This document shows, piece after piece, positions 10,817 to 31,635 of a stretch of DNA of 64,000 nucleotides (positions are counted from its first letter, which is position 1; each line of letters begins with the position of its first letter). Origin of the DNA: Dyella choica (GTDB lineage Bacteria > Pseudomonadota > Gammaproteobacteria > Xanthomonadales > Rhodanobacteraceae); contig NZ_RYYV01000009.1 in NCBI RefSeq assembly GCF_003977665.1, positions 62,001-126,000 on the forward strand. Direction: 5' to 3'. The translations under genes and the position numbers were made by a program. Below the pieces are notes generated by a model. That model was not told the origin of the DNA. It saw only the letters and a list, made by a program, of their open reading frames with translations, and did not search any database.

Positions 10817-10883
10817 TCCTCGGCGTTTTCTGCGGTGTGCGCCAGCACACTCTTACATATTGCCTTGTTCCTATATACGACCC

Positions 10884-11080
10884 GGGACGGTTACTTAAGG
10901 TTGTTGCGCACGTCCGCCGCGAGCGGAAAGCCTTTAGGCCTTAATTTCCCTCCCACCTGATCCCGCTTGGATCAAGGTCGTTTGGTGAGCAGCGGCACCG
11001 CGGTTTACGCCACCCCATTCCAACCCGGACGCCGTCCAGGCGACCTCCGGGCAACGGGGCGCCGGATGCGCCCCACCCTG
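10884..11080 (+). ncRNA. ssrS: 6S RNA
   Basis: The stretch between zapA and fau is the conserved ssrS locus. A TATATA -10 element at 10872-10877 predicts a start near 10884. TTTGGTGAGCA at 10980-10990 matches the conserved segment of gammaproteobacterial 6S RNA (TTGGTGAGCA in E. coli). GGTTGTTGCGCA (10899-10910) can pair, with mismatches, with TGCGCCCCACCC (11068-11079) to form the closing stem around a central bubble. 6S RNA binds sigma-70 RNA polymerase in stationary phase. The ends are approximate. Confidence 0.72.
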
Positions 11081-24706: not shown

Positions 24707-25004
24707 ACGGTGTCTCGGCTAATCCTTGAGTTGGGGCGCGCCCTGGCCCCGCTAATGCCACTTGAGTATACCTGCCCCGCCGGACGCTCCCGAGTGAGCC
24801 CGTCCTAGCCGAGGCACAGGTAAGGCTCTGCCTAGCTGCATGCCGTCCGGGCCCGACAATGCAAGCCAGATCTCAGCGCATGCGACCGGCTGATGCTCTA
24901 ATCGTCGGCCGATTTGGTGAGATCCACCTGTGAACGCCCTGCCCGATACCACCGCCACCCAATTTGTCCCGACATCCGCCCGCCCCAAAGGCCACGCGCT
25001 TGCC

Positions 25005-25400
25005 ATGTGGATTCGCCCAAAGACGTGGCTCGCCGTTGTGCTCCTGACTATCAGCTCCACGGCACTGTGCGCCCCACATGCCTCCCCTCATCTGTTTGGG
25101 GGAGTCCTCCATGCCCGTGGCCCGCATGGGGTTTACACCGAAATCCGGTTCGAACCACATCGCCTGGTGGCACAGGTGCATGAGCCTCACATGTGCGTCT
25201 TGCATGCTCATCTCGTTCACGGAGATCCGCACACCAGCCGCTACGCCATCGAGCCGCCTCGGGGTGGACGCTTCTGCGATGAGCTGGTCGACGGAGAAAT
25301 CGTGATCCATCCGCATTCGTCCAATGACGTGACAGCGGAATTCAGATCGGCGCGGATGGATTGGTCGGGAGAGTTTCGCCGCCACGCATCGGGTCGCTAA
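25005..25400 (+). CDS. Secreted His-rich orphan protein
   Basis: From ATG 25005 the product (131 residues) has a clear signal peptide, MWIRPKTWLAVVLLTISSTA ending near CAAP-like ALCAPHA. The mature part is rich in His (HEPHMCVLHAHLVHGDPHTS) with several Cys, suggesting metal binding, but no family is recognised. GTG 24930 is an alternative start that would put 25 residues before the signal. It stands alone between a divergent tfoX-like gene and the candidate Rsm RNA. Confidence 0.55.
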   Translation: MWIRPKTWLAVVLLTISSTALCAPHASPHLFGGVLHARGPHGVYTEIRFEPHRLVAQVHEPHMCVLHAHLVHGDPHTSRYAIEPPRGGRFCDELVDGEIVIHPHSSNDVTAEFRSARMDWSGEFRRHASGR

Positions 25401-25458: not shown

Positions 25459-25478
25459 TTGTAGGAATTCGCCTACAA
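25459..25478. promoter_or_regulatory. GacA-UAS-like palindrome
   Basis: TGTAGG-AATTCG-CCTACA (25460-25477), extended by one T/A pair on each side, is a perfect palindrome around a 6-nt centre. The GacA upstream activating sequence of rsmX/Y/Z promoters in Pseudomonas is TGTAAG-N6-CTTACA, so this site differs by one symmetrical base per half. It is centred about 65 bp before the inferred start of the GGA-rich RNA. GacA binding is inferred. Confidence 0.55.
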
Positions 25479-25498
25479 CTCAAAGGGGAGACGACTGA

Positions 25499-25527
25499 TT
25501 GCCCGACCCCAAGCATTCACAGAGAAT
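25499..25527 (+). promoter_or_regulatory. Putative promoter of the Rsm-like RNA
   Basis: TTGCCC (25499-25504) and GAGAAT (25522-25527) are separated by 17 bp, a weak sigma-70 match of the sort expected for an activator-dependent promoter. The predicted start is about 25534, exactly where ATGCCCC begins to pair with a distal GGGGCAT. Confidence 0.45.
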
Positions 25528-25533
25528 ACTCCC

Positions 25534-25667
25534 ATGCCCCGTGAGTCCCGCCGACGCATCGGCTGGTGGCACGGATGTCAGGGCGACAGGGATGTCGCGA
25601 TACGACGAGCGGGGCATCATCATGGATGATGGCGGATCCCAAGCCCCGGCAATGCCGGGGCTTTTCG
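25534..25667 (+). ncRNA. Candidate RsmY/RsmZ-like CsrA-titrating RNA
   Basis: No ORF with a ribosome site is evident here. The RNA would be about 134 nt, close to Pseudomonas RsmY/RsmZ. Four GGA motifs are seen: ACGGATGT (25571-25578), ACAGGGATGT (25586-25595), CATGGATG (25621-25628) and GCGGATCC (25632-25639). The second sits in the tetraloop of GCGACA-GGGA-TGTCGC and equals the CsrA/RsmA SELEX core. The third lies at the edge of the CATCAT/ATGATG hairpin loop. ATGCCCC at the 5' end pairs with GGGGCAT (25611-25617), closing a multi-hairpin domain. A terminator ends it. Confidence 0.62.
25641..25667 (+). terminator. Rho-independent terminator of the Rsm-like RNA
   Basis: AAGCCCCGGC-aat-GCCGGGGCTTTT forms a stem of about 9 bp, GC-rich, followed by TTTT and CG then TTTT. 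It faces the plus strand and no protein gene lies just upstream, which supports an independent short transcript. Confidence 0.88.
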
Positions 25668-25869
25668 TTTTCGCGTGGATGCACGCTTGCCCGTGAGTTG
25701 GATCAAAGGGGGCGGACACAGAGGGGCACGAACTCCTTCTCGCCCGCGTAACGAACCAAGCCTCAGTCTGTGCTGCCTAACGAGGAAGGGGGCGCGGACG
25801 AGACTTGCAGACGAACGGGGAGCGGACCTCGGCGATTGGATGTCGCGTATTCGCTACTTTAAGAGCACT

Positions 25870-29321: not shown

Positions 29322-29395
29322 TGGCTGGGAGACTAGGATTCGAACCTAGATAAACGGAGTCAGAGTCCGTTGTCCTACCGTTAGACGATCTCCCA
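29322..29395 (-). tRNA. tRNA-Gln (anticodon CUG)
   Basis: The minus strand folds as a cloverleaf. The acceptor TGGGAGA (29395-29389) pairs with TCTCCCA, followed by discriminator G and an encoded CCA. The anticodon stem ACGGA/TCCGT encloses the loop CTCTGAC, giving anticodon CUG. The T-arm has GGTTCGAATCC. It decodes CAG. Next to rpsI-rplM on the same strand, it may lie in the same transcript. Confidence 0.96.
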
Positions 29396-29464: not shown

Positions 29465-29857
29465 TTAGCGCTTCGAGAACTGGGTAGCGCGACGGGCCTT
29501 GTGCAGACCGACCTTCTTACGCTCGACCTCACGGGCGTCGCGAGTCACGAAGCCGGCCTTGCGCAGCGGCGACTTCAGGCTTTCGTCGTACTCGATCAGG
29601 GCGCGGGCGATGCCTAGACGGATCGCACCAGCCTGGCCGGTGATGCCGCCGCCGGAGACGGTGACCTTGATGTCGAACTTGTCGCTGTTCTGGGTCAGTT
29701 CCAGCGGCTGGCGCACGATCATGCGCGAGGTTTCGCGGCCGAAGAACTCGTCCAGGCTCTTGCCGTTCACTTCGATCTGGCCGTTGCCCTTGCGCAGGAA
29801 CACGCGGGCTGCGGAGGTCTTGCGGCGGCCGGTGCCGTAATTCTGCTGAATCGCCAT
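29465..29857 (-). CDS. rpsI: 30S ribosomal protein S9
   Basis: S9 (130 residues) begins [20 protein letters not shown] and ends with the basic tail RRATQFSKR that reaches into the ribosomal P site. It contains [20 protein letters not shown], the family core. It follows rplM by 9 nt on the same strand, the universal S9-L13 operon. The length equals the E. coli protein. Confidence 0.99.
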
Positions 29858-29866
29858 GATGCTTCC

Positions 29867-30295
29867 TTAGATTTCCAGCGCCTTCGGCTGCTGGGCGGTA
29901 TGCGGATGTTCGGCGCCGCCGTACACCTTGAGCTTGCGGTACATTTCGCGGCCCAGCGGGTTCTTCGGCAGCATGCCCTTCACGGCGATCTCGATGACTC
30001 GCTCGGGATAGGTGGCCAGCATATCCTTCAGACTGGTGGTCTTGAGGTTGCCGACATACCCGGTGAAGCGGTGGTACATCTTGTCGTCCAGCTTGGCGCC
30101 GGTAACGGCCACCTTCTCGGCGTTGATCACGACGATGTAGTCGCCGGTATCGACGTGCGGGGTGAACTCGGGCTTGTGCTTGCCGCGCAGGCGACGCGCA
30201 ATCTCGGTCGAGAGGCGACCGAGCGTCTTGTCCGTGGCATCTACCACGTACCAGTCGCGCTTGACGCTTTCCGGCTTGGCGCTGAACGTTTTCAT
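29867..30295 (-). CDS. rplM: 50S ribosomal protein L13
   Basis: L13 (142 residues, same as E. coli) starts [20 protein letters not shown] and has [36 protein letters not shown] and [18 protein letters not shown]. It is an early assembly protein of the large subunit. ATG 30295 is the family start; the same frame runs further upstream but that sequence is Pro/Ala/Arg-rich and antisense to the next gene. It leads the rplM-rpsI operon. Confidence 0.99.
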
Positions 30296-30356
30296 TTCGG
30301 AATACCTGTCTGCCGCCGATGGGGCGGTAAGCGGAATCGGTGAATAAAGGCGCGAG

Positions 30357-30386
30357 ATGATAGCGAAGCTTTCATCCATCGCGCAA
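30357..30386 (-). promoter_or_regulatory. Putative promoter of rplM-rpsI
   Basis: On the minus strand TTGCGC (30386-30381) and TATCAT (30362-30357) are separated by 18 bp, giving a leader of about 55 nt before rplM. The leader contains CGGCAGACAGG, but I see no clear L13-binding mimic. Confidence 0.5.
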
Positions 30387-30420
30387 GCCCACGGTGGGGT
30401 TGCGAGCTGCGGATGATAGC

Positions 30421-31635
30421 ATGAACGACATGCCTCTTGAGAACCCCCGCCACCGGATCGCCGTGCTGGCTGACCAGTGCGTGCAATGCGGCCTGTGCCT
30501 GCCCGTCTGCCCCACCTATACCGTGGACGGCAATGAGGCCGAGTCGCCGCGTGGGCGGATTGCGATCGCGGCGGCGCTGGCGCGGGGTGCGGTCTCATCC
30601 AGCGCCGAGCTGCGCGAGCCGCTGGATCACTGCCTGGGCTGCCTGAGTTGCGAGCGGGTTTGTCCGGCGGGGGTGAAATATGAGGAATTGCTGGTGGAGA
30701 CCCGGGGGCTACTGGGAACGGCGCCAGGGCGGCCCGGGTTTTTACTGGAGATAGTGAAGCGGCCATGGCTCAATCGCCTGGCGCAGCGCCTGGCTCGCTG
30801 GAGTGGCGTCAGGCGTTGGCCTGGGCTGGCGCTACCTGCCGCTTGGCGGGCGGGACTTGCTTTTGTAAAGCATGGCGGAAGCCTTGCCGCTTACGGCAAG
30901 CTCGGACGCCCCCACCCCAACCCTCTCCTGCCAAGCAGGGGAGGGGGAAGAGCGACGTTGGCCCTATTTCCGGGTTGCGCGGCCAGCGTTCTGGATGCGG
31001 AGGCCGAGCGCGCCGCTGAAACGCTGCTAACTGCCGCCGGCTATAACGTGGCGCGCCTGCCGGCGTTCTGTTGCGGGGCGCTGGATGCGCACGATGGCGC
31101 CACCCGCGCAGCCGAAGCAGCCGCCGAGCGTGTTCGGCAGTCGTGGGCGGAAGCACAGGCCGATTACCTGGTCACAGTGACGCCGGGCTGCTTGAGCACT
31201 TTGCGCAAAGTCCTGCCTACGGCGCGCGTGGAAGATCCCTATAGCCTGCTGGTCGAACAGATCGATAGCTTGTCGTTTCGCCCGCTGCGGATGCGGCTTG
31301 CGCTGCATGTGCCGTGCACGCAGGCCAATGTGGCGCGCAGCGATGCTGCCCTGCTGAAGCTGCTGCAGCGGATTCCCCAATTGGAGCTGCAGCGTCTGCC
31401 TGCCCCGCCTTATTGTTGCGGCGCCGCCGGCAGCCATGTGCTGCAGTTTCCGCAACGAGCTGAGCAATTGCGCGAAAGCGTGCTGGCACACATCGAAACG
31501 CTGGATGTGCAAGGACTTCTGTCGTCCAATATTGGTTGCCGGTTGCACCTGGCGGCAGGCCTGGAAGAAAAGGCTTCCCGGTTGGCCACGCTGCACCCGC
31601 TGACCCTGCTTGCACAGCAATGGATACCGTCATGA
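30421..31635 (+). CDS. GlcF-like (Fe-S)-binding oxidoreductase subunit
   Basis: This 404-residue protein has two N-terminal 4Fe-4S motifs ([14 protein letters not shown] and [12 protein letters not shown]) and two CCG domains (FPGCAAS ... [10 protein letters not shown] and HVPCTQ ... YCCGAAGSH). That is the layout of glycolate oxidase subunit GlcF and of lactate oxidase LutA-type proteins. It would pass electrons from a flavoprotein to the quinone pool, but no flavoprotein subunit is adjacent. A GC palindrome (30908-30955) has inserted in frame, adding about [15 protein letters not shown] between the Fe-S and CCG parts. It overlaps coq7 by 4 nt. Confidence 0.88.
30908..30955. repeat. GC palindrome inserted within a coding sequence
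   Basis: CCCCAACCCTCTCCTGCC followed by AAGCAGGGGAGGGGG forms a hairpin (CTCTCCTGC/GCAGGGGAG core) of the same class as the intergenic palindromes at 3940 and 43738. It sits in frame inside the GlcF-like gene and is translated. Confidence 0.7.

Follow-up and report, generated by a model that had tools for sequence, protein, structure and literature searches.

A candidate GacA-activated, CsrA-sequestering small RNA in Dyella, preceded by a palindrome that recurs across its family

In Pseudomonas, the small RNAs RsmX, RsmY and RsmZ are about 110-140 nt long, fold into hairpins that carry GGA, stand behind a palindromic GacA site, and occur as several per genome. For rsmX-2 a length of 110 nt is given (PMC7911923), the UvrY consensus is stated as TGTAAG-N6-CTTACA (PMC4682653), and CsrB is described with 22 GGA motifs (PMC7652899). 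For Xanthomonas, no rsmB or CsrB/CsrC homologues are reported according to the statements of two papers (PMC3937308, PMC7286519), and the RsmA pathway is called poorly understood there (PMC3937308, PMC7286519, PMC7694677); an RsmA-binding sRNA of that genus, RsmU, is described as having three or four GGA motifs and as being processed from the 3' UTR of XC1332, a predicted ComEA (PMC7694677). Among the matches listed in a literature search, judged by title and the start of the abstract, none deals with an RNA of this kind from Dyella or Rhodanobacter.

The DNA analysed here (the window) is a 64,000-nt stretch of the Dyella choica genome, in which an earlier note had proposed a candidate GacA-controlled Rsm (CsrA-titrating) sRNA. 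The conservation of the GGA loops and the presence of CsrA and GacA-type genes support that proposal, control and binding being predicted. That the locus is a real, conserved, non-coding gene we regard as almost certain; that it is a stand-alone gene which GacA would activate and whose RNA would sequester CsrA (RsmA) we hold, from its sequence, with good confidence. The features of the locus are as follows.

24930 to 25400, + strand: upstream His-rich open reading frame, 156 aa, no Pfam family; a neighbour outside the RNA.
25460 to 25477, + strand: palindrome TGTAGGAATTCGCCTACA, which may serve as the GacA upstream activating site; the match is exact, and the genome has 4 such sites.
25495 to 25500, + strand: CTGATT, a putative promoter element that reads CTGATA in 7 of the 11 copies and CCGATA in 3.
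25499 to 25504, + strand: -35-like TTGCCC proposed in the earlier note; other copies are without it.
25522 to 25527, + strand: -10-like GAGAAT; the 10 copies parsed all have GAGAAT or GAAAAT, and the eleventh has CAGAAT.
25533 to 25668, + strand: small RNA of about 135 nt, from conservation and structure; predicted 5' end.
25534 to 25617, + strand: closing helix formed by 25534-25541 and 25610-25617; pairing in 96.6% of cells, with both sides changed in 2 pairs.
25548 to 25566, + strand: GGA-less hairpin, GCCGA/TCGGC; 96.1% paired, no pair changed on both sides.
25567 to 25580, + strand: GGA hairpin A, TGGCA-CGGA-TGTCA; GGA present in all 11 copies, pairing in 89.1% of cells, with both sides changed in 1 pair.
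25583 to 25598, + strand: GGA hairpin B, GCGACA-GGGA-TGTCGC, containing ACAGGGATGT; GGA present in all but one of the 11 copies, pairing in 87.3% of cells, with both sides changed in 3 pairs.
25618 to 25631, + strand: GGA hairpin C, CATCA-TGGA-TGATG; GGA in 11 of 11 copies.
25641 to 25671, + strand: intrinsic terminator, a 10-pair GC-rich stem (25641-25663) and T run; stem 99.1% paired.

The closing helix encloses the GGA-less hairpin together with GGA hairpins A and B. The four GGA motifs that the earlier note had counted lie at 25573, 25590, 25624 and 25634; in the predicted fold three of them sit in apical loops, and the fourth, which is not conserved, is base-paired in the minimum-energy structure. 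As had been claimed, a 6-bp stem carries ACAGGGATGT at its tip, and the strong terminator was likewise found in its 10-pair stem at 25641-25663. Since terminator-like sites number two in the 2.1 kb scanned vs 1.3 in shuffles, it is the strength and position of this terminator that count, not its mere presence. The fold energy of the window copy has a z of -3.0, with none of 200 shuffles as stable; its in-loop GGA number three against a shuffle mean of 0.48, and none of 200 shuffles reaches three.

The unit from palindrome to terminator is present in 11 copies in six Dyella genomes, with up to three copies per genome. Two of the copies are in the window's genome, the second being full-length and 80% identical in a DNA search. 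A search that covered the window's own genome and 60 relatives gave full-length matches of 74-81% identity, with a left edge 0-14 nt before the palindrome. The earlier note had taken the RNA for the Xanthomonadales counterpart of the known Rsm/Csr RNAs; full-length matches are narrower than that, being found in only 6 of the 16 genus genomes, while analogous RNAs do stand behind the palindrome elsewhere. No full-length copy was found in the other 10 genus genomes and no full-length match among the other 45 of the 61 genomes, outside the genus; the remaining rows in a DNA-match tally of 17 of 61 are of the query's terminator end only. Five of the six carrier genomes correspond by sequence to named Dyella records, with two copies found in D. 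nitratireducens, three in D. flagellata, and one each in D. mobilis, D. acidiphila and D. acidisoli.

A covariance model built from 10 copies was run against 398 genomes sampled from the order. Among the matches listed by score, 11 exceed 100 bits, in six genomes; ten of these are the model's own training sequences, and the only new one is the second copy of G015, which scores 117.6 bits. Below these 11 the next match has 45.4 bits, and there was no match above 100 bits in the other genomes of the sample. A tally of 292 of the 398 genomes was rejected as the distribution of the sRNA, for which only matches above 100 bits count. Among the weaker-match loci L047-L070, the 22 of 24 examined (L059 and L069 apart) score below 46 bits as terminator-type hairpins, and any palindrome nearby matches at 9 of 12 bases at most; several of these hairpins lie, by eye, downstream of an apparent tRNA gene. 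Another set of matches comprised 18 stretches. Those from Bradyrhizobium, Flavisolibacter, Planotetraspora and others, ten in all, were dropped as chance because no palindrome lies within 130 nt upstream of the match, and the remaining eight are Dyella. At another place in the window's genome, in L180 at about 1030-1075 (G000:C12:139907-139980, 45.4 bits), the CACAGGATGTG hairpin and a terminator stand by themselves, resembling the 3' part of the sRNA.

On the 11 copies, the named structure of 39 pairs has 95.1% of its cells paired vs 25-44% when slid, a control that is partly favourable by construction, the structure having been derived from the same sequences. Seven of its pairs are changed on both sides vs a shuffle mean of 1.9, with none of 500 shuffles as high; letter shuffles can be beaten by related sequences even without structure. 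For the 10 copies taken first, RNAalifold gave a small covariation term (-0.9), and the GGA-less hairpin, with zero pairs changed on both sides, contributes no covariation evidence. The earlier note had made its reading depend on the conservation of the GGA loops in relatives; with pairs changing on both sides around them, GGA is kept at 32 of the 33 hairpin positions in the 11 copies, the one departure being a GGC in hairpin B of copy L021. Hairpin C occurs in two forms, CATCA-nGGA-TGATG in four copies and a CACAGGA(T/C)GTG-like form in 7 of 11; because the two do not align, hairpin C cannot be counted as one helix, and both forms present GGA. When ten copies were folded singly, their in-loop GGA numbered 3, 3, 2, 4, 2, 2, 3, 1, 0 and 2, with 2 in L128; the count lies above shuffles at 0.04 or below in 9 of 11 copies, and does not in L007 (1) or L021 (0).

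The same comparisons bear on three other readings of the locus. A small peptide gene (ATGCCCCGTGAGTCC...) would fit with the ATG kept at the 5' end (GTG in L006) and the likeness of the first codons. It was nevertheless rejected, the frames not being kept between copies: small indels shift them, the would-be peptides resemble one another for only some seven codons, and the sequence changes follow base pairs; no clear ribosome site precedes the ATG either, in agreement with the earlier note, which had seen no open reading frame with a ribosome site. We give a peptide gene practically no credence, and the same holds for a dispersed repeat or mobile element with no regulatory role, which would account for the multiple copies and for the 3'-end-like fragment at G000:C12, but sits badly with a unit bounded by palindrome and terminator, with its low copy number, and with pairs that have changed on both sides. 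It is very improbable, though a little less so, that we are dealing with a structured sRNA of the base-pairing (Hfq) type in which the GGA loops are incidental; the most conserved stretch is indeed the 5' half of the sRNA, yet GGA survives the replacement of the sequence of hairpin C, and the excess of in-loop GGA over shuffles in nine copies is also against it. That the sRNA acts as a CsrA sponge is, on the strength of its sequence and predicted loops, highly probable.

The 18-bp palindrome TGTAGG-N6-CCTACA that had been claimed upstream is confirmed at window positions 25460-25477 as TGTAGG-AATTCG-CCTACA. It is the only site in the window with zero mismatches; sites with up to two mismatches number 3 there vs 0.83 expected, and the 5.49 Mb genome has four exact sites vs one for the reversed-pattern control. 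Across the 11 sRNA copies it is exact in nine and one base off in two, and its distance to the -10 box is 44-45 nt in the 10 copies parsed. The -35/-10 pair proposed for this promoter held up in part: TTGCCC and GAGAAT are there with a spacer of 17, but the pair is weak (8 of 12 bases match the consensus by count) and was not flagged by the promoter scan. What is conserved between copies is the GAGAAT-like box and a CTGATA-like box, not TTGCCC. From the position of the -10 box we infer that the sRNA is transcribed from about 25533. The synteny proposed with the His-rich gene also applies to some genomes only, a homologue lying near one sRNA copy in three of the five other carriers (G003, G012, G014). 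Elsewhere in the window there are a 6S RNA (10824-11010, + strand, 85.5 bits) and a tRNA gene (29325-29395, - strand), beside which the open reading frames 29465-29857 and 29867-30766 look ribosomal-protein-like by eye.

In 117 genomes of the host family the palindrome has 197 sites vs 26 for the control, with at least one site in 84 genomes. Genus g11 (G025, G122, G127, G146, G160, G165, G183, G217) has 5-9 palindromes per genome and none of the control; in a sample of 35 genomes of family f2, TGTARG-N6-CYTACA is not in excess, with 14 sites vs 13 for the control. Among the loci fetched, 46 locus rows from at least 44 family genomes have the palindrome upstream of a P-II gene (glnB/glnK-type), at a distance of 64-149 nt; such sites, for example L033 (G000:C56:167424-167441), are also found in genomes without the Dyella sRNA. 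They raise a possible link to nitrogen, and would also fit a larger regulon or a different binding protein.

Other loci, unrelated to the Dyella sRNA family, also tie the palindrome to RNAs that look like CsrA sponges. Genus g19 has five GGA-rich terminated RNAs behind an exact palindrome, in four genomes (L133, L142, L144, L181, L182); they measure 90-95 nt between their conserved GTCCGG and the T run, carry GGA in the terminator loop, and constitute a second family of short GGA RNAs. Behind the palindrome on the minus strand of L166 (G044, family f9) there are 8 GGA in 193 nt, compared with a mean of 1.6 and a maximum of 6 in other windows of that locus; L167 (G042, family f7), also on the minus strand, has 14 GGA in 199 nt, compared with a mean of 2.9 and a maximum of 10. 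Neither matches Rfam at gathering score, and both candidate RNAs look CsrB-like. In-loop GGA lie above shuffles at 0.025 or below in six of these seven g19, G044 and G042 RNAs (L181, 0.15). The RNAs have no clear sequence relation to the Dyella sRNA, whose covariance model reaches at most 20.9 bits in those loci and 17.5 bits at an RNA itself. By eye, a further RNA with two GGA hairpins may be present at L154 in G407. In seven other genus genomes no convincing sponge RNA was seen among the fetched sites with up to one mismatch, L250 (G011) apart; as only fetched loci were inspected for GGA and terminators, the count of palindrome-driven RNAs is a lower bound.

A single CsrA gene is present in the window's genome; its product scores above the curated cut-off and aligns closely to the solved CsrA 1y00 over residues 1-56. 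Among the response regulators one is clearly the best match to the UvrY/SirA/GacA family, with 220 bits vs 146 for the next gene. This GacA-type protein reaches 220.9 bits for that family, below the NCBIfam cut-off of 280, vs 124.6 for the next NCBIfam family, and is 43% identical to E. coli UvrY. A GacA-type match at E 1e-40 or better turned up in 51 of 52 genomes sampled from the order, while 10 of the 16 genus genomes gave no full-length copy of the sRNA, a disparity that speaks against the reading. In the window's genome gacA is not adjacent to uvrC within the 3.6 kb seen, and lies beside an open frame that is RNase E-like by eye. In all six sRNA carriers a palindrome with 10 or 11 of 12 bases stands 139 nt before the gacA start codon (L035:2255-2272 in the window's genome, one mismatch). 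The gacA box thus occurs in the carriers, and it occurs in some non-carriers as well: G005, G006 and G009 have a site of 11/12 bases at the same position before gacA, and 8/12 bases remain there in non-carrier G001; among the loci read, G002, G010 and G011 have no gacA-linked site of 11/12 or better. In 22 further gacA loci from other genera (counted without L216), L221 has 11/12 bases and two others 10/12, at other distances.

These findings have to be weighed against the view that the RNA does bind CsrA, but that the palindrome is bound by some other NarL/LuxR-type regulator, perhaps nitrogen-related, and not by GacA. The recurrence of the palindrome before the P-II gene, also where the sRNA is absent, would be in line with this view, as would bases that differ from TGTAAG-N6-CTTACA and the 81 matches that the UvrY-family model has in the genome, receiver-only matches included. 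On the other hand, the length and layout equal those given for the UvrY inverted repeat (PMC4682653), gacA itself carries the box in every carrier and in G005, G006 and G009, and a site of at least 10/12 bases is seen at the highest-scoring of the genome's five best GacA-like loci but at none of the other four; the motif also stands before CsrB-like RNAs in distant families. We therefore consider another binder unlikely, though worth keeping in mind, and control of the sRNA by GacA likely as far as sequence comparison can tell.

For a GacA-controlled CsrA sponge, we propose that a phosphorylated GacA/UvrY-type response regulator would bind the palindrome and turn the promoter on. The RNA of about 135 nt would then present three GGA loops, held by the closing helix and the terminator, and by binding CsrA dimers would free CsrA-controlled mRNAs. 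Both binding steps, and hence the function, are predicted. More tentatively, and at somewhat less than even chances, we suggest that the palindrome marks a Gac regulon in the host family, made up of the sponge RNA, gacA (as feedback, in Dyella) and the P-II gene, with sponge RNAs repeatedly gained or replaced behind a fixed site; if this is true, nitrogen signalling and Csr control would come under one switch. In the order to which Xanthomonas belongs, a candidate sponge RNA whose activator site can be recognised suggests a Gac-Csr circuit in the lineage, and with TGTAGG-N6-CCTACA as a search motif, the gain, loss and replacement of such RNAs becomes testable.

The Dyella sRNA has in common with the CsrB/RsmXYZ class an intrinsic terminator, frames that are not kept, conserved GGA in loops, the layout of the 18-bp repeat, and a CsrA gene in the genome. 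At gathering score Rfam has nothing at the sRNA locus. The second copy gives 25.1 bits for RsmX (RF02144, gathering 56) and the window copy 13.5 bits for RsmY (RF00195, gathering 57); these two weak matches belong to the same Rfam clan, and being far below cut-off they do not allow the sRNA to be filed in either family. By its anatomy it would nonetheless work like RsmX and RsmY: it resembles RsmX, RsmY and RsmZ in being short and multi-copy, with GGA hairpins and an upstream palindrome, and differs from them in its site, TGTAGG-N6-CCTACA in Dyella and TGTAAG-N6-CTTACA in Pseudomonas. With the UvrY repeat of E. coli CsrB/CsrC the palindrome shares its 18 bp and an identical layout, and GGA motifs are found in both systems, whereas one base per arm departs from the UvrY consensus and the sRNA has fewer GGA than the 22 of CsrB. 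The csrB repeat is described as centred about 183 bp upstream (PMC4682653); the Dyella palindrome lies about 65 bp before the predicted start. The putative activator site is, in this comparison of sequences, lineage-specific. RsmU, from a related genus, is like the Dyella sRNA a GGA-bearing RNA, here a candidate RsmA binder; the two are set apart, going by the description of RsmU, by the palindrome and -10-like box that the Dyella sRNA has of its own and by an upstream open reading frame with no Pfam family. What is new is a candidate CsrA sponge in a lineage where the classic RNAs were reported missing.
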